Position numbers and translations under genes: made by a program. Source: Tabrizicola thermarum (lineage in GTDB: Bacteria; Pseudomonadota; Alphaproteobacteria; Rhodobacterales; Rhodobacteraceae). From it: a DNA stretch of 64,000 nt. Below the pieces are notes generated by a model, which saw nothing but the letters and a program-made list of their open reading frames with translations, searched no databases and was not told where the DNA came from. Position 1 is the first letter of the stretch. Each line of letters starts with the position of its first letter. Positions 16,134 through 50,839 of the stretch are shown here, piece by piece. The DNA is taken from the NCBI RefSeq assembly GCF_003574395.1, contig NZ_KZ984536.1:43322-107321 (forward strand). Direction: 5' to 3'.

Positions 16134-17075
16134 ATGGCACGAGCCCAAGGGGCGCGGGCGCAGATGGCGCTTGCGTTCGAGACGACCTACGGAACGCCGC
16201 CTGCCAGCGGCTTCACCCGGATGCCATTCGCCAGCGCGACGCTGGGGGCGGAGCAGCCGCTGCTGAACAGCGAACTGCTCGGCTACGGCCGCGATCCGCT
16301 GGTGCCGATCAAGGACGCGCTGACGGCCGACGGCAATGTCGTCGTGCCGATCGATGCGGAGGCGTTCGGCTTCTGGTTGAAGGCGGCCTTCGGCCAGCCG
16401 ATCACCACCGGCACCGCCGCGCCTTACAGCCACGAGTTCCGCTCGGGCAGTTACGTGCTGCCGTCGATGTCCATCGAGACCGGCATGCCGGAGGTGCCGC
16501 GCTTCGCGATGTACTCGGGCTGCGTGCTCGACACGCTCAGTTGGCAGATGCAGCGCTCGGGCCTGCTAACCGCGACGGCCAGCCTGGTCGCTCAGGGCGA
16601 GGCCATCGCCACGACCTCCGCCGCTGGCACGCTGGCCGAGATCGACCTCCAGCGCTTCGGGCATTTCAACGGGGCCATCACCCGCAACGGCCAGCCGCTT
16701 GGCAACATCGTCTCGGCCGAGATCACCTATGCCAACACCCTCGACCGGATCGAGACCATCCGTTCGGACGGGCGCATCGACGGTGCCGACCCCGGCATGG
16801 CGGCGCTCACGGGCCGGATCGAGGTGCGCTTCGCCGATCAGCTGCTGGTCAACCAGGCGATCAACGGCGAGCCCTGCGAGATGACCTTCGCCTACACGCT
16901 GCCCTCGGGGGAAAGCCTGACGCTGGTGGCGCATGCCGTCTACCTGCCGCGCCCGCGCATCGAGATTTCCGGGCCGCAGGGCGTGCAGGCGAGCTTCGAC
17001 TGGCAGGCGGCGAAGGATCCGGGGACGGGGCGCATGTGTACGATCACGCTGGTGAACGAACGGGAGACCTACTGA
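16134..17075 (+). CDS. Phage major tail tube protein
   Basis: A 313-residue structural protein with the beta-rich pattern of phage tail tube proteins (ALAFETTYGTPPASGFTRMP, VVPIDAEAFGFWLKAAFGQP, NGQPLGNIVSAEITYANTLD). A duplicated beta-sandwich arrangement is plausible from the length. AGGAGA (16121-16126) gives a clear ribosome site. Its stop overlaps the start of the tail assembly chaperone gene (TGATG). The tube stacks around the tape measure. Confidence 0.82.
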   Translation: MARAQGARAQMALAFETTYGTPPASGFTRMPFASATLGAEQPLLNSELLGYGRDPLVPIKDALTADGNVVVPIDAEAFGFWLKAAFGQPITTGTAAPYSHEFRSGSYVLPSMSIETGMPEVPRFAMYSGCVLDTLSWQMQRSGLLTATASLVAQGEAIATTSAAGTLAEIDLQRFGHFNGAITRNGQPLGNIVSAEITYANTLDRIETIRSDGRIDGADPGMAALTGRIEVRFADQLLVNQAINGEPCEMTFAYTLPSGESLTLVAHAVYLPRPRIEISGPQGVQASFDWQAAKDPGTGRMCTITLVNERETY

Positions 17076-17816: not shown

Positions 17817-20249
17817 ATGGCCCAGAAACGCGTCTCCGTCCGCCTCGTCGCCGAGGGCGGCAGGCAGGTGAAGGCCGAGTTCCAGGGCATCGGCGATGCG
17901 GGCGAGCGCAATTTCAAGCGGATCGAGCGGCAGGCCGATATCACCGGTGCCGTGGTGCGCCGCGTCATGGGCATTCTCGGCGCCGCGATCAGCACGCGCC
18001 AGCTTGTGGCCTATGCTGACCAGTGGACTGATCTGCGCTCGCGCGTCGATCTGGCCACCGGCTCGCAGGAAGCGGGTGCTGCGGTCATGGAACGGCTCGC
18101 CGCCATGGCGCGGCGGACCTATTCCAGCCTTGGCCAGACCACGGAGTCCTGGCTGGCCAATGCGACAGCGCTGCGCGAGCTGGGCCTGACCACGGCGGAG
18201 TCGCTGGATTTCACGGAGGCGCTGAACAACGCCATGGTGGTGTCGGGCGCGCGCGCCGAACGCGCGGCCTCGGTCCAGACCGCGCTCTCCCGGGCGATGG
18301 CGCTTGGCACCCTCAGCGGGGACAACCTCAACACTGTGATCCAGAACGGCGGGCGGCTGGCCGAGCTGCTGGCGGCTGAACTCGGCACCACCGTTTCGGG
18401 CCTGCGCAGGCTGGGCCAGGAGGGTGGGATCACCGGCGAAGTGATCCGAATGGCGCTCATCGGCAATCTCGAGCTGCTGCGCGAGGAAGCCGAAAGCATG
18501 CCGGCGACCATCGGCGATGCCTTCACGCTGATCGGCAACGCAGCACTGCAATTGGTCGGCACATGGGACCAGATGGTTGGGGCCTCATCGACGATGGCCG
18601 CGGCACTGATCGGGCTCGCCGACAACATGGAGCGGCTGGCGGCCATCGGCATCGCCTTCGCGGGCTTCATGGCCGCGCGCTGGGTTGCGGGGCTCATTGC
18701 GGCGCAGGTCGCCACCATCAGCCTCGCAGGCGCGCTTACGCTCTTGCGCGGGGCGATCATCCGCACTGGCATCGGGGCGCTGATCGTGGGTGCGGGCGAG
18801 TTGATCTACTGGTTCGGGCAGCTGGTGCGCGGCGCGGGCGGATTTGGCACTGCGCTCTCGCTCTTGGCCGATCTTGCCCGCGAGGTCTGGGAACGCATGA
18901 AGCTCGGTGCCGTCGCATTGGGGCTGGCGATCATGGCGAGTTGGGCCGATATCAAGGGCGCCATCGCGGAGGCGCTGCAGACCTCGCTGGAAGCCGTGGT
19001 CGGTTTTGGCAATTCGGCGCTGAACACATTCCAAGGGGCGTTTGAGGCAATCAAGGTGCTCTGGGGCGCGCTGCCCGCGGCGATCGGAGATTTTGCGTTC
19101 CAGGCTGCGAATGCGCTGATCTCGGGCGTCGAGGCCATGCTGAATGGCGTCGGCCAGCGGATCAACGGCTTTCTGGAGGGGATCAATGGCGGGCTCGAGG
19201 CGCTGGGGATCGAACGGCGCATCTCGCTGATCGGCAATCTGGAACTCGGCCGGATCGACAACCCCTTCGCCGGGTCGGCGACCGAGGCCGGAGCCGAAGC
19301 CCGTGCGGCGTTTCAGGCGGCGCTCTCAGCCGAGCCGATCACGATGCCGGATCTCGGGCTGGGCACCTATGCCGAGGAAGCGCGCGGTCAGGCCGAGGCC
19401 CTGCGCGCGACGATGGCCGGTGTGGCGGAAGCGGCGACGGCACCGCTCGAATCCATTGACGCCCTGCGCGAAGCGGTGACGGGAAGCGGTCTGGACTCTG
19501 AGGCCGCGCTGAACGGCGCACGTACGGCCGCCGAGGGGCTGGGAGAGTCGCTCGATGCTACGGGCGAGGCTGCGGGCCGCGCAGGTGGCGCCGGTCGCGG
19601 TGCGGGTCAGGCGCTACGCGAGGCGGCCGATACGGCGCGGGGTGCCTGGGAGGCTACCGCCGAGGCAGTCCGCGCGGCGCAGGAACGCTCGCGCGAGATC
19701 GCCCAAGGTCTGGCGCAGGACATCGTCGGTCCGATCAAGGAGGCGCTGCAGTCGGGTGAGTTCACTTGGGAGACCTTTGCCAGCGCCATCTCGCGTATCG
19801 CGCAGAACCTCGCGAACCGGCTGATCGAGCTGGCCTTCAAGCCGATCGAGAACGCGCTGATGCGCGCCTTCTCGGGCATGGGCGGAGGCGGTGGGTTCTT
19901 CGCGAGCCTGTTCGGCTTCGCCAGGGGCGGCGCATTTGCAGGCGGACAGGAACTGACCGCCTTTGCGCGCGGCGGTGTGGTCAACCGGCCGACGGTCTTC
20001 CCGTTCTCCCGCGGCATCGGGCTGATGGGCGAGGCCGGGCCCGAGGCGATCCTGCCGCTGCGGCGCGGGCGCGACGGGCGGCTCGGGGTCGAGATGAACA
20101 GCGCGCCCACCCAACCCGCGCAGGACATGTCGACGCGCATCATCAACGTGCTCGACCCGTCGGTGGTCGGCGACTACCTCGCCACGCCCTCGGGCGAGCG
20201 GGCCATCCTGAACGTCATCCGCCGCAACCGGAGTGCCCTGAATGCCTGA
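17817..20249 (+). CDS. Phage tail tape measure protein
   Basis: An 810-residue, Ala/Gly-rich protein with long helices. The N-terminal block (KRVSVRLVAEGGRQVKAEFQ) and the tape-measure core (LSRAMALGTLSGDNLNTVIQ, LGTTVSGLRRLGQEGGITGE) are followed by hydrophobic helices around residues 275-370. The C-terminus holds the lambda gpH-type block (SGEFTWETFASAISRIAQNL, GEAGPEAILPLRRGRDGRLG). Length predicts a tail of roughly 120 nm by the usual 1.5 Angstrom per residue rule. It overlaps the next gene by 8 bases. Confidence 0.9.
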   Translation: MAQKRVSVRLVAEGGRQVKAEFQGIGDAGERNFKRIERQADITGAVVRRVMGILGAAISTRQLVAYADQWTDLRSRVDLATGSQEAGAAVMERLAAMARRTYSSLGQTTESWLANATALRELGLTTAESLDFTEALNNAMVVSGARAERAASVQTALSRAMALGTLSGDNLNTVIQNGGRLAELLAAELGTTVSGLRRLGQEGGITGEVIRMALIGNLELLREEAESMPATIGDAFTLIGNAALQLVGTWDQMVGASSTMAAALIGLADNMERLAAIGIAFAGFMAARWVAGLIAAQVATISLAGALTLLRGAIIRTGIGALIVGAGELIYWFGQLVRGAGGFGTALSLLADLAREVWERMKLGAVALGLAIMASWADIKGAIAEALQTSLEAVVGFGNSALNTFQGAFEAIKVLWGALPAAIGDFAFQAANALISGVEAMLNGVGQRINGFLEGINGGLEALGIERRISLIGNLELGRIDNPFAGSATEAGAEARAAFQAALSAEPITMPDLGLGTYAEEARGQAEALRATMAGVAEAATAPLESIDALREAVTGSGLDSEAALNGARTAAEGLGESLDATGEAAGRAGGAGRGAGQALREAADTARGAWEATAEAVRAAQERSREIAQGLAQDIVGPIKEALQSGEFTWETFASAISRIAQNLANRLIELAFKPIENALMRAFSGMGGGGGFFASLFGFARGGAFAGGQELTAFARGGVVNRPTVFPFSRGIGLMGEAGPEAILPLRRGRDGRLGVEMNSAPTQPAQDMSTRIINVLDPSVVGDYLATPSGERAILNVIRRNRSALNA

Positions 20250-21414
20250 GATGGGAGGCCCACTGCCGCCGCTGTTCTGGTCCTTCCCGGCGGCGCAGGA
20301 GATCGCCGAAGTGCTGGAATGGCGCACCGATGTGCTGACATCGCGCGCGAGCGAACAGCGCATCGCACTCCGACCCCGGCCGCGCGAGATCGTCACATTT
20401 CGGCACAGGCTGGATGCGCTGGGGATGGCGCGCGCGACGGAAATGGCCCGCGTCGGGTTCGCCGGAGACTGGCAGGTCCCGCTCTGGCACATGGCGCTGC
20501 AGCCCAATGCCGATCTGGCGCAAGGCGTGACCGAGATCCTGCTCGACACCGGCGTGGCGGATTTCCGGAGCGGGGAACTGGCGGCGCTTGCGGTCGATGG
20601 CCGCGAGGCGGCGGCAGTGGCCATCGCCAGCGTTCAGGCCGACCGGCTGATCCTGGCGGAACCTCTGGTGCTGCAACTGCCCGGTCCGGTCGTGGCGGCA
20701 CAGCGGGTCACGGTCGCGCCGATCCGGGCCAGTGCGCTGACCTCAGCCATCGAGGTCACACGCCGCAGGCAGGGCGATGGCACGGTCACGGCCAGCTTCC
20801 TCTTGCGCGATGCGCCGGACATCACCGCACCGGTCCTGCCGACCTATCTCGGCCGCCCGGTCCAGACCGATCCGAGCCTTGTACGCCGCCCGCTCACCGC
20901 CAGCCTGCGCCGCGCGGTCGAATACGTCGACAACGGTTTCGGCCCGGTTGTGGCCGAGCCGCTGCGCGACGTCTTCGAGCGGAGCGAGACGATCACGCTG
21001 AAGGCACAAGGCCGCATTGCACGCCACGCCCTGCGGCGCTGGCTCTGGTCGCTCCGAGGGCGGCAGGCCAGCTTCTGGCTGCCGACCTGGGGGCGCGACC
21101 TGCAGTTGCGTGCCGCGATGACCTCTGGATCCACGCTGGTGCGCGTGGCGCCGGTCGCGTCGCTCCCGGCCTATGTCGGCCGCGCGATCCTGCTGGAAAT
21201 GCCGACCGCGCTGCGCTTCCGGACGATCACCGCCGCCACCGCCGAGGGCGCGGATCACCGGCTCACGCTGTCCTCGAACCTCGGCGAGAAGGTGCCGCTC
21301 ATGACCAAGGCGCATTTCCTGACCCCGATGCGCGCAGATGCCGACCGCGTGGAGATCCAGCATGGCGCTGTGGCGAGCGAGGTCACGCTGCCTCTTATCG
21401 AGGTGCCCGCATGA
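20242..21414 (+). CDS. Phage distal tail protein (hub-adjacent)
   Basis: A 390-residue protein placed between tape measure and BR0599-type protein. It has an N-terminal half with WRTDVLTSRASEQRIALRPR and WQVPLWHMALQPNADLAQGV, and a C-terminal half that repeats the same kind of pattern (HALRRWLWSLRGRQASFWLP, TWGRDLQLRAA). The internal resemblance suggests a duplicated tail-tip domain. Similar proteins precede BR0599-family proteins in several siphoviruses. No enzymatic motif is seen. Confidence 0.62.
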   Translation: MPEMGGPLPPLFWSFPAAQEIAEVLEWRTDVLTSRASEQRIALRPRPREIVTFRHRLDALGMARATEMARVGFAGDWQVPLWHMALQPNADLAQGVTEILLDTGVADFRSGELAALAVDGREAAAVAIASVQADRLILAEPLVLQLPGPVVAAQRVTVAPIRASALTSAIEVTRRRQGDGTVTASFLLRDAPDITAPVLPTYLGRPVQTDPSLVRRPLTASLRRAVEYVDNGFGPVVAEPLRDVFERSETITLKAQGRIARHALRRWLWSLRGRQASFWLPTWGRDLQLRAAMTSGSTLVRVAPVASLPAYVGRAILLEMPTALRFRTITAATAEGADHRLTLSSNLGEKVPLMTKAHFLTPMRADADRVEIQHGAVASEVTLPLIEVPA

Positions 21415-22277
21415 CCTATGCTAGCATCGAAGCCTCGGTCGCAGAGGGCCGCCCGTATTTCCTCTATCAGTTTGTCGAGGTGGATCAGGTCTGGCGTTTC
21501 ACCAGCCGAGCCACGGCCTGGACCAGCGCGGGGAGCGGCGGGACCGAGATCACCTGGGAGCCAGCCGCCGTGGCCCATGGCGATGTGGTGCAGACAAGCG
21601 AGATCGAGCGGGGGCGGCTGGAACTGACCTGGCCGCTCTCGCATCCTTTCGCGCGGCGCTTCCTCGGTCCCTTGGGCAACACGCCCGTGACGCTGACCAT
21701 CTTCCGTGGCCACGAGCAGGTGCTGGGGGAGACGGTCGCGCATTGGAAAGGCCGCGTGGTGGGGGCCGAGGTGGAGGGGCAGCGGATCCTGCTGCAGGCC
21801 GAGTCGATCTTCAGCACGCTGCGACGCGCGGGCGTGCGGGCGAAGTACCAGCGGCTTTGCCGCCATGCGCTTTACGGGCGCGGCTGCGGCCTCGACATCG
21901 CGCTCTACTGGCTGACCGGCACGGTGACGGCCGTATCCGGCAACGCCTCGAGCCTGACGATCCCCGAGGCGGCGGCTGAGCCCGCCGGCTGGTACCGGGG
22001 CGGTGTGCTCAGGTTCGGCGCGCAGCTCGGGTTCATCACCGGCCATGCCGGGGCCACCCTCACACTGTCGCGCCCGATGCCGGAACTGGCGGCGGCGCTC
22101 GCCGCGCCGGAAATCGATCCGGACACCGGCTCGCCGCTCCCGGTCCTCGCCGACATAGCCCCCGGCTGCGATCTGCGCGCCGCCACTTGTGCCGCGAAGT
22201 TCGGCAACCTCGCGAACTTCGGGGGCTTCCCCGAGATCCCCGGCCGCAACCCCTTCGGCGGCAGCTCCATCGTCTGA
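21411..22277 (+). CDS. Phage BR0599/DUF2163-family tail protein
   Basis: A 288-residue distal tail protein. The N-terminal part (YFLYQFVEVDQVWRFTSRAT, WEPAAVAHGDVVQTSEIERG) precedes a cysteine-containing C-terminal part: CRHALYGRGCGLD (about 148-160) and APGCDLRAATCAAKFGN followed by NFGGFPEIPGRNPFGG, the typical C-terminal signature. Four cysteines probably hold a metal, as in GTA gp13. The ATG at 21411 overlaps the previous stop by 4 bases (ATGA). It is intact, unlike its counterpart at 45549. Confidence 0.85.
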   Translation: MTYASIEASVAEGRPYFLYQFVEVDQVWRFTSRATAWTSAGSGGTEITWEPAAVAHGDVVQTSEIERGRLELTWPLSHPFARRFLGPLGNTPVTLTIFRGHEQVLGETVAHWKGRVVGAEVEGQRILLQAESIFSTLRRAGVRAKYQRLCRHALYGRGCGLDIALYWLTGTVTAVSGNASSLTIPEAAAEPAGWYRGGVLRFGAQLGFITGHAGATLTLSRPMPELAAALAAPEIDPDTGSPLPVLADIAPGCDLRAATCAAKFGNLANFGGFPEIPGRNPFGGSSIV

Positions 22278-22285
22278 GAACGCCC

Positions 22286-22534
22286 ATGGTCTGGACCTTC
22301 ATTGCACGGCTCGTCCTCGGGCTGGTCCTCTCGGCGATTTCCTATGCGCTGAGCCCGCGCCCCAAGGTCGAGAAGCCGCAGGCCGCAGGGCTAGACGACT
22401 TCTCCCTGCCCACCGCCGAGGAGGGTCGGCCGATCCCGGTTGTGTTCGGGACGGTGCTGATCACCGGGCCGAACGTCGTCTGGGCAGGCGACCTGAAGGT
22501 GGATCCGATCAAGAAGAAAGGCGGCAAGAAGTGA
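22286..22534 (+). CDS. Tail hub N-terminal-like small protein
   Basis: An 82-residue protein with a hydrophobic N-terminal segment (WTFIARLVLGLVLSAISYAL), followed by TAEEGRPIPVVFGTVLITGP and NVVWAGDLKVD, and a Lys-rich end. This matches the first domain of large host-specificity (gpJ-type) proteins, here encoded separately upstream of the main hub gene. The split is common in this phage group. It starts 8 bases after the BR0599 stop and is overlapped by the next gene's GTG. Confidence 0.72.
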   Translation: MVWTFIARLVLGLVLSAISYALSPRPKVEKPQAAGLDDFSLPTAEEGRPIPVVFGTVLITGPNVVWAGDLKVDPIKKKGGKK

Positions 22535-22737
22535 CGCGTGTGACGATCCAGGACCTGCGCGATGCCCGCTACTGCCTCGCGGGCGTGCGGCCATGGTTCC
22601 GCCGCCACGGGTTCGACTGGCAGGCGTTTCTCGACAGCGGCATCGAAGCCGACCGGCTGCGCATAACCGGGGATGCGCTGGTGGAGCCGGTGATCACGAT
22701 CGCCGAGCAGCGGGAGGCATGCGATGGGCGGGCGTAG
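22531..22737 (+). CDS. Small conserved phage protein, 68 aa, GTG start
   Basis: The gene starts at GTG 22531, overlapping the previous stop (GTGA). The product (TRVTIQDLRDARYCLAGVRP, WFRRHGFDWQAFLDSGI) resembles a short family often found before the tail hub gene in alphaproteobacterial prophages. It is helical with no motif of known function. It overlaps the hub gene by 14 bases. The size and place suggest a tail-tip assembly factor, but this is a guess. Confidence 0.6.
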   Translation: MTRVTIQDLRDARYCLAGVRPWFRRHGFDWQAFLDSGIEADRLRITGDALVEPVITIAEQREACDGRA

Positions 22738-25700
22738 CAAGGCGCAGACCGTTGGCTTCCGCTATTCGCTGGGGATGCATCTGGCGCTCTGCCATGGGCC
22801 GATCGATGCCATTCGCGAGATCCTCGTTGACCGCCGCACCGCATGGTCTGTCACGACCGGCGGCGGCGTTTCGGGTGGCGGCGCGGCCGTGGAGACGCGG
22901 ATCGGCACAGTCGCAGGCATGACCGCCACTGCCGCGCTGGCAGGCGACACGGGCGCCACGATCACCTTTCCGGGGACGCGCGCCGGGGTGCGCATCGGCC
23001 GGGACTACCGGCTGCAATTGGCGAATGGCACGAGCCAGACCATCACTCTGCGCGGCGTCACCTTCAACGCCACCACGAATGTGAGCTCCTGGTCCGTCCT
23101 GCCCGAGGCACTGAGCTTCCCCTCGCAGTCGGTCGAGGTGTTCGAGGCGACCAGCGCCGCCAGCAATGCCGGCGCTGGCGGTGGGCGCATCCGGATAGAC
23201 AAGCCCGACCTCTTTGGCGGCGAGAGCCGCGAGGGCGGTGTCCGCGGCGATGTCGATGTGCTGATGGGCGGGCCGGGCCAGGGGCAGAACGATTACCTGG
23301 CCGCGCGCATGGACGGAGACGTGCCCGGCTATCGCGGGCTTTGCAGCCTAGTGCTTCGGCAGGTCTATCTCGGCATCAATCCGTATCTGAAGCCTTGGGC
23401 GGTCCGCGTGACCCGCGTGCTGACCGGCGAGGCAGGCGCGGCGCAATGGTATCCCGAGAAGGCCGCCATCGTGCCCGAGGCCAATATCTCGGACGCCGCG
23501 ATCTATATCGCGCTCGATGTCTCGGGCTCGATGTCGGGCACGCGCATGGCGGCGCAGAAGGCAGGGGTTGCCGCGCTGATCCGCGAGATCGGGGCCAGCG
23601 TCGATCCCGACCGCCCGAACGACATCCGCATCGTGCTCTGGAACGCTGGCGTCGCGGGCGCGACCCTTCGCCGCGACATGGGCCCGGACGACTATGCCGC
23701 GCTCGATGCCTGGATGCTGGCGCTGTCGAACAGCACCTCGGGCGGCACCAGCTTTGACGCGGCCTTCTCGCAGGGGGGTGCGTTTTTCGCGGGCGGCGGG
23801 TCGAAACGACGGATCGTGATCTTCGTGACCGACGGCGAACCTGCGCCGGTCTCCTCGGTCGATGCGGCGCTGGCGATCATCCGCATGCTTCCGCCCGCCG
23901 ACATCTTCGGCTTCAACATCGCGCTCGCGAACACGACCTCTACCGCGCGCATCGACAACACGCCCGTGGACGGCGTGCCAGTGATCCCGGCCGGCAACCC
24001 GCAGGCACTGGTCGCCTCCCTTCGCGGGGCCTTCGGGAACGGCCCGGACATGAACCCGGCCCATATCATCCGGGAGTGCCTGACGAACCGTGACTGGGGG
24101 CTTGGCTATTCCACGGTCGAGATCGGGGCCAGTTTCACGGCGGCTGCGGACACGCTCTACACCGAAGGCTTCGGCCTGTCGCTGATCTGGCAGCAGGACA
24201 GTTCCATCGAGGAGTTCATCGGCAGCGTTCTCGACCATATCGACGCAACGCTCTTCATCGACCGGCGCACGGGGCTCTGGGAATTGCGGCTCATCCGGGC
24301 CGACTACACGGCCGCAACGCTGCCACTCTTCGACGAGACGAATGTCGTGGACTGGGGACGCCTCGGGCGGCGCGCGCCTTCGGACCTCGTCAACAGCGTG
24401 ACCGTGCGCTTCACCGATGCCTGGACGGACGACACCGGCGCCGTCAGCGTGACCGATACGGCCCGGGTCCAGTCGATGGGCGAGGTGATCGCCACCACGC
24501 TCGACTATCCGGGCATCCGCTACCAGGGGCTCGCGATCCGCGTGGCCGAGCGCGACCTTCGCGCCCTTTCCGTGCCGCTACTCACGGGCGAGATCGTGGT
24601 GAACCGTGAGGGCGCGGACCTCGGCCCCGGCGATGTAATTCGGCTGCGGTCGTCCCGCCTCGGGCTCGACGATGTCGTCATGCGCATCTCCGAGATCGGT
24701 CAGGGCGACGGCCGCGACAATGGAATCCGGCTGAAGCTTGCGGAGGACGTCTTTGCCCTTGGCGCGACCGCCATCGCAGGCGGGCGCATGCCGACTGGGT
24801 CCGGGGTCGCGGCTCCGCCTAGGGCACTCTCCCGGCGCATGGTCGAGGAAGCACCGTACTGGCTGCTGGTCCGCGAACTCGGCCACACCGAGGCCGACCG
24901 CATTCTGTCGGAGGATCCAGATGCGGGCGCGGTTGTCGCCACGGGCGAGCGCCCCAGCGCCGATGCGCTGGCGGCGGAACTCTGGATCGACCCTGGAACC
25001 GGCCCGGCACAGGAGGGCGTGGTCGCCTTCGCGCCCACGGCGCTGCTGGCTGCGGACATCTCGGACCACCCGGAGGCGCGCGTCCTTCCCGTCACCGGCT
25101 GGCGCGACATCGGCGAGGTCGGCATCGGCACGCTTGCGAGCATCGGTGGCGAACTGGTCCGCGTCGACGGGATTACCTCCACGGCCATCACCGTGGGCCG
25201 GGGTTGCCTCGACACCGTGCCGCGTGCCCACCCTGCAGATACGCCCGTGATCTTCTTCGACGAGGGCGCGCGGATTACAGAGGACAGCTGGGCCGCGGGC
25301 GAGACCCTCGCGATCCGGCTGCTGCCGGAGACCGGGCGTGGCACGCTCGCCTTCGCGCTGGCACCCGAGGACAGCGTCACACTGGACCGCCGCGCCATCC
25401 GGCCCCTGCCGCCCGGGCGGGTGCAGGCCAACGGCAGCTATGCTCCTGATGTCGATGCGCTGATCGCAGATGATCTGGTGCTGACCTGGACCCATCGTGA
25501 CCGGCTGACACAGACCAGCCCCGTGATCGTCGATCACACCGGTTCCTCCATCGGGCCGGAGCCGGGCGTCGGTTATGCAATCGAAGTGCGCTGGATCGAC
25601 CCCGACATCGGCGTGGCGCTCATGCCGCCCGGCATCGTGATCGACGCTGGCATGGGGACAAGCTGGACGCTCGCGCCCGAGGACATCCCCGAGACCGGCG

Positions 25701-25855
25701 CGCCGGACCGCACGGCCGAGATCGACCTCGCCGTGCGCTCACGTCGTCTGGTTGGAGGCGCCTGGCTCACCGACCGCGAGGCCCGCCAGTTCCGGCTGAC
25801 CGCGCCCTTCGCCGCTGGCTGGGATCGCGGCTGGGGCTTCCTCTGGGGCACCTGA
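22724..25855 (+). CDS. Phage tail hub/host-specificity protein with inserted VWA domain
   Basis: A 1043-residue gpJ-like tail tip protein. The N-terminal part (YSLGMHLALCHGPIDAIREI; YLKPWAVRVTRVL; QWYPEKAAI) is interrupted at about residue 255 by a complete von Willebrand A domain: the MIDAS motif DVSGSMSG (about 264-271), a conserved Thr in GGTSFDAAF, and the VTDGEP strand-loop. The hub sequence resumes at about residue 441 with DMNPAHIIRECLTNRDWGLG. Metal and surface binding are therefore plausible. The C-terminal half contains beta-rich hub domains (RDLRALSVPLLTGEIVVNRE, GPGDVIRLRSSRLGLDDVVM). The protein would sit at the tail tip and contact the host. Confidence 0.85.
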   Translation: MGGRSKAQTVGFRYSLGMHLALCHGPIDAIREILVDRRTAWSVTTGGGVSGGGAAVETRIGTVAGMTATAALAGDTGATITFPGTRAGVRIGRDYRLQLANGTSQTITLRGVTFNATTNVSSWSVLPEALSFPSQSVEVFEATSAASNAGAGGGRIRIDKPDLFGGESREGGVRGDVDVLMGGPGQGQNDYLAARMDGDVPGYRGLCSLVLRQVYLGINPYLKPWAVRVTRVLTGEAGAAQWYPEKAAIVPEANISDAAIYIALDVSGSMSGTRMAAQKAGVAALIREIGASVDPDRPNDIRIVLWNAGVAGATLRRDMGPDDYAALDAWMLALSNSTSGGTSFDAAFSQGGAFFAGGGSKRRIVIFVTDGEPAPVSSVDAALAIIRMLPPADIFGFNIALANTTSTARIDNTPVDGVPVIPAGNPQALVASLRGAFGNGPDMNPAHIIRECLTNRDWGLGYSTVEIGASFTAAADTLYTEGFGLSLIWQQDSSIEEFIGSVLDHIDATLFIDRRTGLWELRLIRADYTAATLPLFDETNVVDWGRLGRRAPSDLVNSVTVRFTDAWTDDTGAVSVTDTARVQSMGEVIATTLDYPGIRYQGLAIRVAERDLRALSVPLLTGEIVVNREGADLGPGDVIRLRSSRLGLDDVVMRISEIGQGDGRDNGIRLKLAEDVFALGATAIAGGRMPTGSGVAAPPRALSRRMVEEAPYWLLVRELGHTEADRILSEDPDAGAVVATGERPSADALAAELWIDPGTGPAQEGVVAFAPTALLAADISDHPEARVLPVTGWRDIGEVGIGTLASIGGELVRVDGITSTAITVGRGCLDTVPRAHPADTPVIFFDEGARITEDSWAAGETLAIRLLPETGRGTLAFALAPEDSVTLDRRAIRPLPPGRVQANGSYAPDVDALIADDLVLTWTHRDRLTQTSPVIVDHTGSSIGPEPGVGYAIEVRWIDPDIGVALMPPGIVIDAGMGTSWTLAPEDIPETGAPDRTAEIDLAVRSRRLVGGAWLTDREARQFRLTAPFAAGWDRGWGFLWGT

Positions 25856-25894: not shown

Positions 25895-26572
25895 ATGCCC
25901 GAACGGATCATGCCGGGACTGGGGCTGCGTGCCTTCTATGATCCCGGCCAGCGCAACTGGGGCACCAGCCTCAGCGAAGACCTGCGCCGTCTCTCGGCCC
26001 TCGTGCAGGCGCGTGCCACATCGCGGACCGCAGCACTTCCTGCCACGGGCACCGCAGGCCAGATCGCCATCGTGCCCGCCGCGGCAGGCGCCAATGCCAA
26101 TGCGCTCGCCCTCTGGGACCAGTCGCCAGCCGGGGCGGCTGCATGGGTCTACCTGACCCCCGAGGAGGGCTGGCAGGTCTGGATCGCGGATGAAGCGCGG
26201 CATGTGCGGTTCACGGGTGGGGCATGGACCGAGGTGCCCCGACCGGGCGTCGTGCGCATCCGGACGCTGACGGCGACCAGCCACACGCTCGAAGCCGGCG
26301 ATCTGGGCAGCATCCTCGAGACGACCGGCTCCTCGGCCGTCACCGTAACGATCCCGATTGAGGCGACCGTGCCCTTCGAGATCGGCACGCTCATCAATGT
26401 CACGCAAGTCGGCGCCGGGATCGCCACGATCACCGCTGCACCGGGCGTGTCGCTCAATGGCGTCACTGGAGGCTCCGTCGCCCTCGATGGCCAATGGTCC
26501 GGCGCCGCCCTCGTCAAGCGCGGGGCAGATGCCTGGGTCATCCAGGGCGCGCTGGCGGGGGCTGTCGCATGA
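25895..26572 (+). CDS. DUF2793 tail fibre protein
   Basis: A 225-residue protein beginning like DUF2793 fibre proteins (MPGLGLRAFYDPGQRNWGTS, WVYLTPEEGWQVWIADEARH) and continuing into a beta-rich, Thr/Val-rich C-terminal domain (SAVTVTIPIEATVPFEIGTL, GAGIATITAAPGVSLNGVTG). It probably forms a trimeric tip attachment. It lies 39 bases after the hub stop, with its stop overlapped by the next ATG. A second DUF2793 fibre at 50861 belongs to the other phage remnant. Confidence 0.78.
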   Translation: MPERIMPGLGLRAFYDPGQRNWGTSLSEDLRRLSALVQARATSRTAALPATGTAGQIAIVPAAAGANANALALWDQSPAGAAAWVYLTPEEGWQVWIADEARHVRFTGGAWTEVPRPGVVRIRTLTATSHTLEAGDLGSILETTGSSAVTVTIPIEATVPFEIGTLINVTQVGAGIATITAAPGVSLNGVTGGSVALDGQWSGAALVKRGADAWVIQGALAGAVA

Positions 26573-27438
26573 GCCTGCTGATGATGCGCGCCGCCATCCT
26601 GGCGCAGGGCGGCGACACCGCTCCGCCGGTGGACATCGGCTCTGTCTGGCAACTCGACACAGCCCGCCGCCCTCCGGGCTACACTCTGTCCGATGCCAAT
26701 CAGACCGCCGTGAACACCTCTGGCGGGACCAACTATATGCGCTGGGTGCCGAGTGCCAAGGCGATCCTGCCCTCGGACGGGCGGCGCTATTGGGAAGTTC
26801 TCTGTGCAGCCAGCGGGGCTGCCAGTTTCGACGGCTACATGGGCGTCGTCTCCGCCGCGCAGCGCGAGGAGTTCAATGTCGGCAACAACCCGATCACGCT
26901 GGGCTCCATCGGCTATCGCGGCAACGGTACCCTCTGGTCGTCGAACAACACTGTGGCCGAGCAGCGCCTGACCGGCCTGCCCACCTTCGGGGCGGGCAGC
27001 GTGCTGATGTTCGTCCTGGACCCGGCCACCGCGCGGCTCTGGGTCGGCAGGAACGGCGTCTGGCGCGACGATCCGGTGAGCGGGGCGGCAACGTGGACGG
27101 CCGCGCAGAGCACGGCCTTCTATCCGCAGGTCCAGGGCCGCAATCCCGGCGACGGCGGCACGCTGCGTTCGCAGCCCTCGCAGTTCAGCTACCCGGTTCC
27201 TCCCGGGGCGCTGCCGCTCGGCTACGAGCACCCCGACCTGCGCATCTTCGAGGCGCATGCCTTCATCGAACTGGCCTGGGACAAGGACCTCAGCGTCGGC
27301 GAGTTCGAGGCCTGGTTCAATCTCGGCGGCGGCACGCGCCTCACGGCGGGCGGCGTCTCGATCTTCCTCGATCACGGCGGGGGAACCTCCCTCACCGCCG
27401 CCCAATCCGCCCTCTACATCGAAGTGGAACTGCCATGA
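26569..27438 (+). CDS. Tail fibre protein with SPRY-like domain
   Basis: A 289-residue protein whose middle (RRYWEVLCAASGAASFDGYM, GSIGYRGNGTLWSSN, GSVLMFVLDPATARLWVGRN) has the strand order and W/G pattern of SPRY/concanavalin-like domains (KYYWEV...G....GY..G). Such domains occur in phage adhesins. The C-terminal part (EAHAFIELAWDKDLSVGEFE) is beta-rich. The start overlaps the DUF2793 stop (ATGA), and the stop is overlapped by the next ATG. It is probably a receptor-binding or baseplate-linked fibre. Confidence 0.6.
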   Translation: MSLLMMRAAILAQGGDTAPPVDIGSVWQLDTARRPPGYTLSDANQTAVNTSGGTNYMRWVPSAKAILPSDGRRYWEVLCAASGAASFDGYMGVVSAAQREEFNVGNNPITLGSIGYRGNGTLWSSNNTVAEQRLTGLPTFGAGSVLMFVLDPATARLWVGRNGVWRDDPVSGAATWTAAQSTAFYPQVQGRNPGDGGTLRSQPSQFSYPVPPGALPLGYEHPDLRIFEAHAFIELAWDKDLSVGEFEAWFNLGGGTRLTAGGVSIFLDHGGGTSLTAAQSALYIEVELP

Positions 27439-38846: not shown

Positions 38847-40598
38847 TCAGGCTATGGCGGGTGTGCGGCCGACCAGCGCGCGCAGGCGGTCCGCGCCAAC
38901 CGGGTCTTCGGGCAGCATCGGCACCACGGCATGAAGTGCGGCAAGCCCACCGCGCACTTTGGCGATCTCAGGCGCTTCCGTGGCCGCGCGGGCCGCGAGG
39001 ACCGGATGCGTGGTCGCCGTGGCGGCGAGACTTGCGTTGATGACCCAGCCGTAGGGCGTGATCCCGGCGCGTTTCAGATCCTCCTGAAGCCGGGCGGCTT
39101 CCAGAACCGGCGTCGTCTCGGGCAGGGTCACGATCAGGATCTTGGTCATCTCCGGGTTCTGCAGCCGCATCATCGGCGTCGTCATGTGGCTGGCCTGCTC
39201 CCCCGCGTGCCGCAGCACATCACGGTGGTAGGATCCTGTCGCATCCAGCAGCAACAGCGTGTGGCCGGTTGGCGCGGTATCCATCACCACGAACTTGCGC
39301 CCCGCCTCGCGGATCACCCGTGAGAACGCCTGAAACACGGCGATTTCCTCGGTGCACGGCGAGCGCAGGTCCTCTTCCAGCATCGCGCGGCCCTGTGCAT
39401 CGAGGCTCGCGCCCTTGGACGCCAGGATGTGGTCGCGGTAGGTCTGCGTCTCGAGGGCGGGGTCGATGCGGCTGACGGTCAGGTGCGGCACGTCTCCGGC
39501 CAGCGTCTCGGTCAGATGCGCGGCGGGGTCGGTGGTGGTCAGCAGCACCTCATGCCCGCGCGCGGCGAGTTCGACGGCCACGGCGGCAGCGATGGTGGTC
39601 TTGCCGACGCCGCCCTTGCCCATGGTCATCACAAGTCCGCGGCCCCCGGCTTCGATCCCGTCGACCAACGCTGAGAGCGGCGGGAGATCGGTGTCGGTGA
39701 CGCGCGGCGCGGCCTTTCCGAGTTCGACCGGTGCATTCATCCGGCGCAGCGCGTCGAGACCTACAAGGTTCTCGGGCCGCAGCGCGAAGCGGCTTTGCGG
39801 CAGGGCTGCCAGGTGCGTGTCCATGCCATCCAGCGCCGCTTGGTCGCGCGCGATCAGGCTGGCGGCGAGCGCATCGCCCATGTCCTTGTCCGGCATCAGC
39901 CCGTTGATCGCCAGATGCTGGTTGCCGATGCCGATATCCGCCAGCTCCCCACTGGTGCGCGCGGCCTCCGCCAGCGAACTGACGCGCGGACGTGCGACGA
40001 GGATCAGCCGCGTGCGGGCCGCATCGGACAGGCTGTCCACGGCCGCCGCATAGCGCGCGCGTTGCTTCTCCAGCCCAGCAAGGGGACCGAGACAGGACGC
40101 ATCGCCCCCGGTTTCCAGAAACCCGCTCCAGGCGCCGGGCAGTTTCAGCATCCGGATCGTGTGGCCGGTCGGGGCCGTGTCGAAGATGATGTGATCGTAG
40201 GCACTGGTCACGGCATCGTCGGTCAGAAGTGCCGTGAACTCGTCGAAGGCGGCGATCTCGGTCGTGCAGGCGCCCGAAAGCTGCTCCTCGATGCCCTTCA
40301 GCGCCTTTTCGGGCAGCACCCCGCGCATCGGCCCGACGATGCGGTCGCGATACTCGGCCGCTGCCGCCTCGGGGTCGATTTCCAGCGCGTCGAGCCCAGG
40401 CACGGCGGCAACCGGGGTGACATGGTTGCCGATCTCGATCCCGAACACCTGCCCGACATTCGAGGCCGGATCGGTCGAGACCAACAGAACCCGCTCCCCC
40501 GCATCGGCTAGGCCCACCGCCGTGGCGCAGGCCAGCGAGGTCTTGCCCACGCCGCCCTTGCCGGTGAGAAAGACGAATTTGGGCAGATTGTTGAACAT
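38847..40598 (-). CDS. arsA: Arsenite-stimulated ATPase
   Basis: A 583-residue, duplicated P-loop ATPase. The A1 half has FLTGKGGVGKTS (residues 10-21) and the A2 half TMGKGGVGKTTIAAA (about 320-335). The signal sequence DTAPTGHTIRMLKLPG in A1 and DTAPTGHTLLLLDATG in A2 are both present. Three cysteines expected for As(III)/Sb(III) binding appear in LSGACTTEI, ASCLGPL and RSPCTEEI. AAAGGAGAAG lies just before the ATG. It receives arsenite from ArsD and energises ACR3 export. Confidence 0.94.
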   Translation of the reverse strand: MFNNLPKFVFLTGKGGVGKTSLACATAVGLADAGERVLLVSTDPASNVGQVFGIEIGNHVTPVAAVPGLDALEIDPEAAAAEYRDRIVGPMRGVLPEKALKGIEEQLSGACTTEIAAFDEFTALLTDDAVTSAYDHIIFDTAPTGHTIRMLKLPGAWSGFLETGGDASCLGPLAGLEKQRARYAAAVDSLSDAARTRLILVARPRVSSLAEAARTSGELADIGIGNQHLAINGLMPDKDMGDALAASLIARDQAALDGMDTHLAALPQSRFALRPENLVGLDALRRMNAPVELGKAAPRVTDTDLPPLSALVDGIEAGGRGLVMTMGKGGVGKTTIAAAVAVELAARGHEVLLTTTDPAAHLTETLAGDVPHLTVSRIDPALETQTYRDHILASKGASLDAQGRAMLEEDLRSPCTEEIAVFQAFSRVIREAGRKFVVMDTAPTGHTLLLLDATGSYHRDVLRHAGEQASHMTTPMMRLQNPEMTKILIVTLPETTPVLEAARLQEDLKRAGITPYGWVINASLAATATTHPVLAARAATEAPEIAKVRGGLAALHAVVPMLPEDPVGADRLRALVGRTPAIA

Positions 40599-46873: not shown

Positions 46874-49800
46874 ATGGCCACGCTTGTCCTCGGCGCTGTC
46901 GGCACGGCCATCGGCGGGGCCTTTGGCGGCGCGATCCTCGGCTTTTCCGGTGCGGCCATCGGCAGCTTCATCGGCTCGACCGTGGGCTCGGTGGTCGACA
47001 ACTGGATCGTCTCATCGCTGGCCCCGGCTCAGCGGATTGAGGGCGCGCGGCTTGACACGCTGCGCATCACCTCGGCCACCGAAGGCGCGGTGATCCCGCG
47101 CCTTTACGGTCGTATGTGGATCGGCGGCAACATCATCTGGGCGACCGATTTCCGCGAGGAGACGAAGACCACCACCCAAGGCGGCGGCAAGGGCGGTGGG
47201 GGCGGCAAGGTCAAGACCACCGAATACCTCTACTATGCCAGCTTTGCCGTGGCGCTGTGCGAAGGTCCGATCACCGGCATCGGCCGCATCTGGGCCGACG
47301 GAAAGGCGATGGACATGACCGGCGTGACCTGGCGCTGGTATCCCGGCAACGAAGTGCAAACCGCCGATCCGTTCATCGCAGCAAAAATGGGGGCCGCTAA
47401 CACGCCCGCCTATCGTGGCACGGCCTATGTCGTGTTCGAGGATCTGGCGCTGGCGACCTTCGGCAGCCGCCTGCCACAACTGTCGTTCGAGGTGTTCCGC
47501 CCACTGGCCGATCCCGACACCGCCGAAGGCCTGACCCGAGCCGTCACCCTGATCCCGGCCTCGGGCGAGTTCACCTATGCCACCGACGCGATCCGGAAGG
47601 GCAGCGGCGGTGCCACCGTGGCCGAGAACCTGAACGCGCTGCCCGACCAGGCCGACATCGTCGTGGCGCTGGACCGGCTGCAGGCCGTGGCTCCGGCGGT
47701 CGAGAGCGTGAGCCTCGTCGTGGCCTGGTTCGGCAACGATCTGCGCGCGGGTTCCTGCAAGGTAAAGCCGGGTGTCGAGGTCGCCTCCAAGGCCACCACG
47801 CCCGCCAACTGGTCGGTGAATGGCGTCAGCCGGGCCAGCGCCCATCTGGTCAGCCGTGATGCCGAAGATCGGCCGGTCTATGGCGGGACACCTGCGGATT
47901 TCGCGGTGGTGCAGGCGATCCAGGAGATGAAGGCGCGCGGGCTGCGGGTCACCTTCTATCCCTTCCTGCTGATGGATGTGCCGCCCGGCAACACGCTGCC
48001 GAACCCCTACAGCGCCAATGCTGCCACGCTGGGTCAACCCGCGTTTCCATGGCGGGGGCGGATCACCTGTTCCCCAGCGGCCGGATTTGCCGGATCGGTG
48101 GACAAGAGCGGCACGGCGGCAACGCAAGTGTCGGCCCTGTTCGGGGCGGCGACGCCGGGGAATTTCAGCGTGTCGGGCGAGAGCGTCAGCTTCACCGGCT
48201 CGCCCAGCGACTGGGGCCTGCGCCGCATGGTGCTGCACTACGCGCACCTTTGCGCAGCGGCGGGTGGCGTCGATGCCTTCCTGATCGGCACCGAGATGCC
48301 AGGCCTCACCACCATCCGCTCGGGGGCCAGCACTTACCCTGCCGTCACCACTTTCAAGACCCTCGCGGCCGACGTGAGCTCCATTCTCGGCGCGGGCACC
48401 AAGATCGGCTATGCGGCCGACTGGTCGGAATACTTCGGCCACCATCCGCAAGACGGCAGCAATGATGTCTATTTCCACCTCGACCCGCTCTGGTCGGATG
48501 GCAACATCGACTTCGTGGGCATCGACAACTACCTGCCGCTGTCAGACTGGCGCGACGGTTTCGATCATGCCGATGCGCTTCAAGGGTGGCCCGCGATCTA
48601 CGACCGGGCATATCTGCAAGCGAACATCGCAGGCGGCGAAGGCTTCGACTGGTTCTATGCCAGCGCCGTTGACCGCTCCGCCCAGATACGGACAGCAATC
48701 ACTGATGGTGCGGCAGGCAAGCCGTGGGTGTTTCGACCCAAGGATATCCGCGCCTGGTGGACGAACCCGCATTTCAACCGGCCAGGCGGGGTGGAAAGCG
48801 GCGCGCCCACCGCATGGGTGCCGCAGTCGAAGCCCGTGTGGTTCACGGAACTGGGCTGCCCGGCCATCGACCGGGGCACAAACCAGCCGAACGTGTTCTT
48901 CGACCCGAAGTCGTCGGAGAGCTTCACGCCCTGGTTCTCCCGCGGCTGGCGCGACGACGCGATCCAGCGCGCCTATCTCGAGGCCAGTTACCTCTGGTGG
49001 GGAACCCCGGCAAACAACCCGACATCCACGATCTACGGCGGCCGGATGGTCCATGTGCCGGAATGCGCGGCATGGACCTGGGACGCGCGGCCCTATCCGT
49101 TCTTCCCTGAGCTGACCGGCGTCTGGACGGACGGCCCCAACTGGCGGCTTGGTCACTGGCTGACGGGGCGGCTGGGCGCGGTGTCTCTCGCCGCCCTCGT
49201 GCGCCACCTGTGCCTGCGAGCGGGCCTCGATGAGGCATTCATCGACGTCTCCGGCCTCTGGGGCGCGGTCGAGGGCTATGTCATCGGCGCCCTCGAAAGC
49301 CCTCGCGCGTCGATTTCCACGCTGGCCCGACATTTCGGCTTCGATGCCATCGAGACCGAAGGCATGATCCGCTTTGTCATGCGCGGGCGGGCTTCGGTTC
49401 TGAGCCTGGCGCATGACGACCTCGTGGCATCCCGCGAAGGGGAAGCGCTGGAACTGGTCCGCGCGCAGGAAACCGAACTGCCGCAGGCGCTGAAGTGGCA
49501 GGTCGCGCGCGCCGACGAGGACTATGATGCCGCCCTCGTGGAAGCGCGGCGCATCACGGTCGATACGACGCGCATCGCGTCCGAGAGTTTCCCGATGGCC
49601 ATCCCGCCAGAGGAGGCCGAACGGCGCTGCCGCCGCGCGCTGATGGAAGCGTGGATCGGTCGCGAGAGCGCGACCTTCCGTCTGCCGCCCTCGCGGCTGG
49701 CTCTGGACCCTGCCGACGTGATCCGGCTCTCCCATGACGGCCGCGAGGTCGAGTTCCGCCTGGTCTCCGTCGCCGACGCCGAGGCACGCGGCATCGAAGC

Positions 49801-50839
49801 GGTGCGTCAGGACCGTGCCGCCTATGACCTGCCGCCGTGGGACCCCCGGCCCGCGAGCATTTCCAGCCCTGTCGTGTTCGGCACGCCGGAAGTGGTGATG
49901 CTGGACCTGCCGCAGATCAGCGAGGACCAGCCCGCGCATCGCCCCCTGATCGCCGCCCATGCCAGCCCCTGGCCGGGCGAGATCGCGGTGTTCCGCAGCG
50001 CGTCGACGGACGGGTTCAACCTCCTGACGACCTTCGGGAGCCGTGCGCGGATCGGCACGCTGGCTTTCGATTTCTTTCCGGGACCGACCTCGCGCTTCGA
50101 TCTGGGCAACGCGCTGGTCGTCGATCTGCTGTCAGGGACGCTCGAGGGTGTGACGGACGTTGCCCTGTTCGGCGGGGCAAATGCACTGGCTGTCGAGTCT
50201 GCGGCCGGGGTCTGGGAGATCGTCCAGGCTGGCCAAGCCGAACTGATCGCCCCCGATCGCTACCGGCTGACCCGCCTGCTGCGTGGCCAGCGCGGGACGG
50301 AACAGGCTATGGGCAATCCCGCCCCGGCCGGGGCGCGGGTCGTTGTATTGGAAACGACACTGGCCTCGCTGCCCATTACAGAGGCCGACCTCGGCCTGCC
50401 ATGGAACTGGCGGGTCGGCCCTGCCGCGCGCGATGTCAGCGACGCGAGCTATGCCGCGCTGGGCTTTACGCCGACAGGGCGCGGCCTCGTGCCCTTCGCG
50501 CCGGTCCATGTCGAACAACCATGGCGGACGGCGCGCAGCCCGGGCGATCTAACCATTCGATGGACACGGCGATCGCGCACGCTCGTGGCCGATTCCTGGG
50601 AACAGGTCGAGGTGCCGCTGGCCGAGGATCTGGAATCCTACGACGTCCAGATCCTCGACGGCGCCGCCGTCAAGCGCACGCTGACCAGCACCACGACCTC
50701 CGTCCTCTACACCGCCGCCCAGCAGAGCGCTGATTGGGGCACGCCGCTCGCACCCGGCCAGACGCTGTCGATCCGCATCTACCAGCTCTCGAACCGCCTC
50801 GGCCGCGGCACGCCTGCCGCGGTCACGATGCAATTCTGA
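46874..50839 (+). CDS. GTA-like tail hub protein with TIM-barrel domain (gp15-like megatron)
   Basis: A 1321-residue tail tip protein. It starts with a Gly-rich hydrophobic segment (GAVGTAIGGAFGGAILGFSG), then a hub domain (VIPRLYGRMWIGGNIIWATD; LYYASFAVALCEGPITGIGR). A glycosidase-like TIM barrel follows at about 430-730 (DFVGIDNYLPLSDW; VWFTELGCPAIDRG; YLEASYLWWGTPANNP). C-terminal hub domains come last (LRGQRGTEQAMGNPAPAGAR). This is the order of RcGTA gp15. No frame break is seen although both neighbours are damaged. Confidence 0.92.
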   Translation: MATLVLGAVGTAIGGAFGGAILGFSGAAIGSFIGSTVGSVVDNWIVSSLAPAQRIEGARLDTLRITSATEGAVIPRLYGRMWIGGNIIWATDFREETKTTTQGGGKGGGGGKVKTTEYLYYASFAVALCEGPITGIGRIWADGKAMDMTGVTWRWYPGNEVQTADPFIAAKMGAANTPAYRGTAYVVFEDLALATFGSRLPQLSFEVFRPLADPDTAEGLTRAVTLIPASGEFTYATDAIRKGSGGATVAENLNALPDQADIVVALDRLQAVAPAVESVSLVVAWFGNDLRAGSCKVKPGVEVASKATTPANWSVNGVSRASAHLVSRDAEDRPVYGGTPADFAVVQAIQEMKARGLRVTFYPFLLMDVPPGNTLPNPYSANAATLGQPAFPWRGRITCSPAAGFAGSVDKSGTAATQVSALFGAATPGNFSVSGESVSFTGSPSDWGLRRMVLHYAHLCAAAGGVDAFLIGTEMPGLTTIRSGASTYPAVTTFKTLAADVSSILGAGTKIGYAADWSEYFGHHPQDGSNDVYFHLDPLWSDGNIDFVGIDNYLPLSDWRDGFDHADALQGWPAIYDRAYLQANIAGGEGFDWFYASAVDRSAQIRTAITDGAAGKPWVFRPKDIRAWWTNPHFNRPGGVESGAPTAWVPQSKPVWFTELGCPAIDRGTNQPNVFFDPKSSESFTPWFSRGWRDDAIQRAYLEASYLWWGTPANNPTSTIYGGRMVHVPECAAWTWDARPYPFFPELTGVWTDGPNWRLGHWLTGRLGAVSLAALVRHLCLRAGLDEAFIDVSGLWGAVEGYVIGALESPRASISTLARHFGFDAIETEGMIRFVMRGRASVLSLAHDDLVASREGEALELVRAQETELPQALKWQVARADEDYDAALVEARRITVDTTRIASESFPMAIPPEEAERRCRRALMEAWIGRESATFRLPPSRLALDPADVIRLSHDGREVEFRLVSVADAEARGIEAVRQDRAAYDLPPWDPRPASISSPVVFGTPEVVMLDLPQISEDQPAHRPLIAAHASPWPGEIAVFRSASTDGFNLLTTFGSRARIGTLAFDFFPGPTSRFDLGNALVVDLLSGTLEGVTDVALFGGANALAVESAAGVWEIVQAGQAELIAPDRYRLTRLLRGQRGTEQAMGNPAPAGARVVVLETTLASLPITEADLGLPWNWRVGPAARDVSDASYAALGFTPTGRGLVPFAPVHVEQPWRTARSPGDLTIRWTRRSRTLVADSWEQVEVPLAEDLESYDVQILDGAAVKRTLTSTTTSVLYTAAQQSADWGTPLAPGQTLSIRIYQLSNRLGRGTPAAVTMQF

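Follow-up and report, generated by a model that had tools for sequence, protein, structure and literature searches.

A von Willebrand factor A domain in the tail hub of a Tabrizicola prophage lies in a loop that related hubs leave empty or fill with other domains

RESULTS

The tail hub gene and its VWA insert

We analyzed a 64,000-nucleotide stretch of the Tabrizicola thermarum genome (assembly GCF_003574395.1, contig NZ_KZ984536.1, positions 43,322 to 107,321), referred to here as the window, in which a prophage encodes a tail hub protein carrying a von Willebrand factor A (VWA) domain with a metal ion-dependent adhesion site (MIDAS). The hub gene and the features of its insert are as follows.

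22724..25855, + strand: tail hub of the JBD30 gp53/Chi gp30 type with inserted VWA, 1043 aa (Pfam, PHROGs, Foldseek)
23471..24049, + strand: VWA insert, hub residues 250-442 (193 aa), between WYPEKAAI and MNPAHI (flank alignment, Pfam, model)
23516..23530, + strand: MIDAS motif 1, DxSxS (D265, S267, S269) (sequence)
23747..23749, + strand: MIDAS Thr342, in GGTSF (sequence)
23831..23833, + strand: MIDAS Asp370, in VTDGEP (sequence)

The open reading frame (ORF) at 22724-25855 is a siphophage hub gene of the JBD30/Chi type, as established by profiles and by structural matches to solved hubs. It matched the tail family phrog_1101 (PHROGs, E = 9e-264) and Phage-tail_3 (Pfam PF13550, residues 501-658, E = 1.3e-9), and a Foldseek search with the AlphaFold2 hub model returned the JBD30 hub (8rk3_b, E = 2.5e-55) and the Chi hub (8vjh, E = 1.4e-50). 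The flanks WYPEKAAI and DMNPAHI aligned without an insert to residues 141 and 149 of the JBD30 hub (8rk3) and to residues 143 and 159 of the Chi hub (8vjh), with 7 and 15 residues, respectively, between the aligned flank ends. The original prediction, made from the sequence alone, had placed a VWA domain between QWYPEKAAI and DMNPAHI at 23460-24060; the insertion point was confirmed, and the coordinates were right to about 10 bases.

VWA_2 (Pfam PF13519) matched hub residues 261-372 (E = 2.3e-7; 31.9 bits against a cutoff of 27), and phrog_15205 (PHROGs, tail) matched residues 254-433 (E = 9e-24). PF00092 gave only an E value of 0.022, below its own cutoff, and a whole-genome search with PF00092 alone did not return the hub domain, so that the VWA assignment rests on PF13519 and the phage VWA profile. 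The AlphaFold2 model (66-row alignment; mean pLDDT 83.9, pTM 0.54) contained an alternating beta/alpha domain at residues 258-434, with block-mean pLDDT values of 80 to 95 at residues 261-410 and of 67 to 79 from there to residue 440, and Foldseek matched the model to the VWA domain of CMG2 (8fz4, TM score by target 0.76). The insert is a VWA domain with a predicted Rossmann-like fold, in agreement with the original prediction, and all five MIDAS residues (D265, S267, S269, T342, and D370) are present, so that the claim of a complete site also held.

The hub loop as an exchange site

Of 50,697 phage records, 758 contained relatives of the whole hub by tblastn, and 20 of these had a single place covering at least 80% of the query. 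The VWA domain alone was found in 23 of the 50,697 records, corresponding to 15 phages after merging of GenBank/RefSeq pairs. These were Bordetella, Erythrobacter, Xanthomonas, Stenotrophomonas, Variovorax, Pseudomonas (PaMx28), and Rhodobacter phages, and the GenBank record of phage MW2 (KY000218) already labels its hub "von Willebrand factor type A."

The content of the loop was then compared across 283 full-hub loci drawn from viral contigs, 16 named phage records, and the window. Among the 215 unique hubs (15 of them solely from named phages or the window), the slot was empty in 68, held a VWA in 113, and held another insert in 34, proportions that are biased because several survey queries were VWA hubs. 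Clustering at 90% identity gave 128 hub clusters (49 VWA, 46 empty, 33 other). The empty loop measured 0 to 39 residues in unique hubs and 3 to 21 in clusters; the other inserts measured 120 to 323 residues in clusters. A Pfam scan of 9 of the 33 other-insert representatives identified one Laminin_G_3 domain (E = 1.7e-9) and one subthreshold Glyco_hydro_2_N match (E = 0.0028). The insert family to which the latter belongs (12 members, grouped by BLAST links) was modeled at pLDDT 87.7 and matched GH2 beta-galactosidases (E = 2.5e-5, TM score by query 0.52).

In a tree of 126 of the 128 hub clusters, built after removal of the insert, at least 17 changes among four insert states were required, or 26 when named insert families were distinguished and ungrouped inserts left out. 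Sister hubs with differing inserts included the survey loci L133/L272, L222/L230, L224/L285, and L252/L216 (support 96 to 99). The hub loop is thus an exchange site that holds nothing, a VWA, or other domains. The expectation that the two flanks would be adjacent in related hubs was correct for JBD30, Chi, AAT-1, and others, while many relatives hold a VWA or another insert there; the insertion point recurs, and the view of the insert as a single oddity of a single hub was too narrow.

Longer slot contents were also observed: a domain of 339 to 348 residues in three Mesorhizobium prophages (L375, L376, and L387; Phage-tail_3 was the sole Pfam match in the L375 hub) and about 430 residues in BUCT551. 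A second hub insert, at 22859-23173 (+ strand, about residues 46-150), was modeled as all-beta and is lineage specific: such an N-terminal insert occurred in 27 of 46 measured VWA hub clusters, 2 of 41 empty clusters, and 1 of 32 other-insert clusters, mostly in the wider clade of the window.

Hub inserts and side fibers

In JBD30, three gp47/gp48 tail fibers bind the type IV pilus; the N-terminal domain of the distal tail protein (DTP) wraps the fibers, and the attachment sites come from the DTP, the upper baseplate protein (UBP), and the hub (excerpts of PMC11445458). The corresponding genes of the window are as follows.

17817..20249, + strand: tape-measure protein (profile scan)
20242..21414, + strand: DTP, short 390-aa form without VWA (overlaps the tape-measure gene, no fiber genes between)
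21411..22277, + strand: UBP, JBD30 gp50 type, without VWA here (homology)

No gp47/gp48 fiber homolog was found upstream of the hub in the window, where the tape-measure and DTP genes overlap. AAT-1 has fiber genes homologous to the gp47 type (E = 2e-30) and the gp48 type (E = 1e-20), a 560-aa DTP, and an empty slot. PaMx28, which shares its genus according to the taxonomy lines of the records, has no gene separating the tape measure from its 386-aa DTP, and both its UBP and its hub carry a VWA.

Fibers were counted in the 99 of 118 clusters with at least 1,500 bases upstream of the DTP; 10 of the 128 clusters had no DTP in the available sequence, and the 19 clusters with less than 1,500 bases included the uninserted L170, L203, and L206 (no fiber match) and L193 (uninserted, fiber match). 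Fibers were found in 0 of 60 clusters with a hub insert (37 VWA, 23 other) versus 34 of 39 without one (Fisher P = 1.5e-21, not corrected for relatedness), and in the remaining 5 uninserted clusters the DTP carries a VWA. Only one of the two fiber proteins was detected in 2 of the 34 fiber-bearing clusters. The DTP was mostly 373 to 422 aa long with a hub insert and 520 to 624 aa long with fibers.

The gene spacing was in agreement with these counts. Among clusters with at least 2,500 bases, the DTP gene directly adjoins the tape-measure gene, at a spacing of -22 to +4 bp, in 21 of 21 clusters with another insert and in 30 of the 31 VWA clusters that could be measured (2 more VWA clusters were unmeasurable). 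In the 31st, L110, an initial gap came from a stray second DTP match, and the intact DTP at 2759 overlaps the tape-measure end. Uninserted clusters had a gap of 953 to 2,864 bp in 30 cases and none in 5 (3 unmeasurable), the gapless ones being equal in number to the DTP-VWA clusters. Because the two genes abut in inserted clusters, missed divergent fibers do not explain the exclusion.

A second collection, from genome contigs, gave 80 loci and 62 hubs not identical to the earlier ones (3 loci had no full hub and 15 were duplicates), 46 of them with room for the fiber count; these hubs were unclustered, and many came from lineages already in the first survey. None of the 38 inserted hubs had fibers, as against 6 of the 8 uninserted ones, and both remaining uninserted hubs have a DTP-VWA; at four inserted loci, tape measure and DTP were 129 to 379 bp apart. 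Nine further isolates were compared. The slot was empty in AXL1 and B3, which have clear fibers, and in CC6 and 1.117.O, whose fiber matches were weak or partial. The fiber-bearing AXL1 uses type IV pili (excerpts of PMC9206674). RcThunderbird has a VWA in its DTP, BUCT551 has the filled slot noted above, and in RcPacific, which gave no fiber match, the UBP begins with a TIM-barrel region. Among the loci examined, insert and side fibers therefore never occurred together. A stricter rule, that one of fibers, hub insert, or DTP-VWA is always present, was rejected, since Chi and Soft have none of the three.

Several neighboring features were observed. Two small genes lie between UBP and hub (22295-22737), a position kept in relatives whose annotation was seen (JBD30 gp51 and gp52); the first of them we take, by eye, to resemble a piece of the hub N terminus. 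After the hub, at 25895-27438, one gene matches tail-fiber families (phrog_7049; Pfam DUF2793) and the next has no clear family; their products are possibly further receptor-binding proteins (RBPs). The DTP of R6L (L008:2781-4370) has a long N-terminal extension that, by eye, resembles the jelly-roll inserts of other hubs.

MIDAS conservation and carriers of the VWA

The VWA domain also occurs in the UBP and DTP of relatives, and several phages have it in hub and UBP or in hub and DTP together; in RcSpartan it lies midway in the DTP. In the window's family, 29 of 295 genomes (its own included) had a VWA match at E ≤ 1e-6. The matches at E ≤ 5.1e-35, taken as strong, fell in open frames of hub size (875 to 1,129 aa) or DTP size (564 to 568 aa) and the weak ones in other proteins of 796 to 3,345 aa, and in two genomes a hub-VWA adjoins a DTP-VWA.

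Of 127 VWA copies in all, the five MIDAS positions were intact in 107 of 108 hub copies, the incomplete one being truncated and gapped at those positions, and in 9 of 9 UBP and 7 of 9 DTP copies; many copies are close relatives, so these counts are not independent. In a VWA tree of 57 rows, at least seven changes of carrier label were required, one label being that of three cellular rows. The DTP copies of L307, L116, L211, L093, and L308 grouped, at a support of 97, with hub copies from the wider clade that they share; L211, which is in the wider clade of the window, has its VWA in the DTP only. This grouping suggests that the VWA has been copied between neighboring tail genes. A fourth carrier is a phrog_290 protein (L258:2-2179) whose VWA has a degraded MIDAS; phrog_290 is also the family of the window's presumed tail-tube protein (16134-17075).

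Relatives of the VWA in cellular proteins

A 17-row profile of the phage VWA searched against the PDB matched 9no5 ("putative secreted protein, hemolysin"; E = 8e-15), 9das (E = 7.9e-12), and also collagen VI; the pilus proteins 6m3y and 6m48 matched at E = 1.1e-5. A pilus-tip origin, from a VWA of the PilY1/TadG type, was considered. It is not claimed, as the pilus matches were far weaker than that to 9no5 and, in the window's own genome, the phage VWA profile matched the hub alone at E ≤ 0.01. Four distant cellular matches from the window's family were inspected, and in all but one (L305) the domain lay in a called ORF. The three proteins are large, with cadherin-like and bacterial Ig repeats, and two of the three also have RTX repeats. 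The 9das structure is the vWFA domain of the Aeromonas RTX adhesin AhLap, in which a carbohydrate-binding module (CBM) and the vWFA bud from split domains as ligand-binding units; this vWFA bound a diatom and not the endothelial cells, erythrocytes, or yeasts tested (excerpts of PMC12077191).

The gene transfer agent hub in the same window

Outside the prophage, some 21 kb from its hub, the window contains the hub of a gene transfer agent (GTA).

46874..50839, + strand: GTA hub ("megatron," Rcc01698 type), GTA_TIM at residues 447-745 (Pfam; outside the prophage)

In a one-sequence search, the N flank of the GTA hub matched the N profile of the prophage hubs (E = 6e-7). The C profile matched only marginally, and the C flank was thus taken from Phage-tail_3, which lies at residues 808-966 of the GTA hub and starts about 60 residues past the insert in both hubs. 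Profile alignment of the two hubs left the insert region unresolved, slot equivalence being drawn from the two flanks. On this flank homology, the GTA TIM-barrel domain looks like an occupant of the equivalent slot. The RcGTA segment 230-744, between the adhesin-like (47-229) and central (745-984) domains, is called "peripheral" (excerpts of PMC7296036), which supports an outward position of the slot. Also in the window, at 38850-40598 (- strand), lies an ArsA-type ATPase gene, seemingly doubled, with the ArsA match spanning 7-288 and additional P-loop matches starting at 323.

DISCUSSION

We favor the reading, at a probability of roughly 0.6, that the tail tip uses the VWA as a side adhesin, exchangeable and dependent on metal, in place of pilus-binding fibers. 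The loop between the hub N-terminal region and the MNPAHI helix would be an outward slot, presumably also in the window phage, for a ready-folded binding domain: a VWA, a Laminin-G-type domain, a glycosidase-2-like jelly roll, or, in GTAs, a TIM-barrel domain. With three VWA copies in each hub trimer, the baseplate would be ringed by MIDAS sites holding Mg or Ca, and these sites may bind an acidic group on a surface protein or glycan. The slot domain would thereby do the first-contact job of the paired side fibers gp47/gp48 of JBD30, directed there at type IV pili, and under this proposal the fiber genes would be absent, and the DTP usually without its extra N-terminal region, because that job is done by the slot domain. 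Replacement of fibers by the insert is the presumed direction. A role in host or surface recognition had been suggested in the original prediction; the exchange of slot contents, which include lectin- or sugar-binding-type domains, the exclusion of fibers, and the adhesin relatives of the VWA point indirectly to such a role.

A number of observations weigh against this reading. The placement of domains relative to each other in the hub model is uncertain (pTM 0.54). Of the nine other inserts scanned with Pfam, six had no match and one had weak matches only, and the window's own lineage is uniformly VWA bearing, stable rather than swapped. Independent insert/fiber contrasts number only 3 (4 on all branches), with 1 opposite and 2 showing no difference, so that the association rests on few events. 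Long DTPs without fibers occur in R6L (529 aa), in six other-insert clusters (515 to 543 aa), and in Chi and Soft, and one fiber-bearing cluster has a DTP ORF of 310 aa. Since Chi and Soft have neither fibers nor a slot insert, a slot adhesin is not obligatory. The MIDAS Thr is missing from one of eight fully aligned DTP copies, the gapped ninth is altered, and the single tail-tube-like copy has lost its MIDAS. The window phage also has other candidate fiber genes downstream of its hub (25895-27438).

VWAs often mediate protein-protein contacts, and the domain might instead brace baseplate subunits, joining the hub to UBP or DTP with a MIDAS that grips a phage protein rather than the host; in a variant of this idea, it would transmit fiber binding to tip opening. 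The phages with VWAs in hub and UBP or in hub and DTP could pair them in this way, and the near-universal integrity of the hub MIDAS, with its single exception truncated, would fit a structural or trigger module. Unlike a bracing partner, however, the slot accepts unrelated domains or nothing, and the related vWFA of the RTX adhesin buds as a binding unit that in one case bound a diatom (excerpts of PMC12077191). We therefore regard this explanation as unlikely, at something over one-third of the weight given to the adhesin.

It is less likely still that the VWA is an accessory capture domain, binding extracellular polymers or surfaces such as biofilm or particles to raise the encounter rate while downstream fibers bind the receptor. 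The tail-fiber-like genes after the hub would suit such a division of labor, as would the finding that the CBMs of evolved Dit proteins bind the host of the main RBP with lower affinity (excerpts of PMC7291167), but the exclusion of side fibers suggests a substitute for the first-contact organ and not an addition to it. AAA+/CobT partners have been described (excerpts of PMC7911831 and PMC8651126), including AAA+/VWA gene pairs in haloarchaeal viruses (PMC7911831), yet an adaptor for a MoxR-type AAA+ chaperone in tail assembly is very improbable here, as none of the 20 window proteins scanned (part of its ORFs) gave a MoxR-like match and the VWA is inside a virion hub and replaceable by other domains.

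Extended beyond the window, the side-adhesin reading leads to a more tentative proposal, which we hold at slightly below even odds: the hub slot of Gram-negative siphophages and alphaproteobacterial GTAs may be a general cartridge site, a filled slot (in hub, UBP, or DTP) making the side fibers and the fiber-holding part of the DTP dispensable, so that the tail-tip genes could by themselves reveal whether the first receptor is a pilus or a surface polymer/protein. If so, integrin-like, lectin-like, and TIM-barrel domains would be swapped in for pilus-binding fibers at a slot conserved in a common Gram-negative tail type, and the evolved-Dit idea would extend to Gram-negative phages and GTAs. 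There would be a sequence rule for guessing whether a pilus or another surface structure is the starting point in this phage group, and the receptor of VWA-bearing phages would be directly testable through the five MIDAS residues.

Comparison with known systems

The hubs of JBD30 (gp53, 8rk3) and Chi (8vjh) are homologous to the window hub and share both flanking sequences of its insert; they differ in having nothing inserted in the loop, and JBD30 has gp47/gp48 pilus fibers and a long DTP. The family phrog_15205 already groups UBPs with an N-terminal VWA, such as PaMx28 gp30; its carrier is the UBP and not the hub, and its PHROGs entry reads only "tail assembly protein." The RcGTA megatron Rcc01698 resembles the window hub in having an extra segment between adhesin-like and central parts, in an apparently equivalent slot, but that segment is a TIM-barrel-containing one of about 515 residues and not a VWA.

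The RTX adhesin AhLap, whose vWFA (9das) is related by profile to the phage VWA, likewise has VWA and CBM units with adjacent termini budding from split domains (excerpts of PMC12077191). It is a bacterial surface fibril, in contrast to a prophage tail hub, and its vWFA has an inserted subdomain of its own, whereas the phage VWA has an ending of the DNTPxDGVPV type. The evolved Dit proteins of Gram-positive siphophages carry binding domains in loops of a structural tail-tip protein, and such domains also decorate tail-tube proteins (excerpts of PMC7291167). In those systems CBMs are carried by Dit, whereas in the present Gram-negative phages a MIDAS-bearing VWA is carried by hub, UBP, and DTP. 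The hub VWA would thus work like an evolved Dit but is not one, because its carrier is not Dit and its module is not a CBM.

In a limited search of the open-license PMC literature, we found no siphophage hub described as carrying a VWA. For the vWFA genes reported in N4-type and Delftia phages, no tail role is given in the available excerpts (PMC4193335 and PMC5735904), the word "willebrand" is not mentioned in PMC11946847 or PMC6469090, and no receptor was found for the VWA-bearing phages in the excerpts covering Elanor/Mallos (PMC9316219) and RcSpartan (PMC10783043). The nearest account, from 2007, is that of gp164 of Bacillus phage 0305phi8-36, a baseplate/fiber-region protein with a central VWA that has another domain in its stead in the related phages BtI1 and BwK1 (excerpts of PMC2147016). 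This is a different protein of a Gram-positive myophage, likened to the hub VWA by description, and the available part of that account contains no MIDAS survey and no link to side fibers. A swapped VWA in a phage baseplate/fiber gene was thus already known; the present analysis adds the slot in the hub, the alternative domains that fill it, the carriers next to the hub, and the exclusion of fibers.

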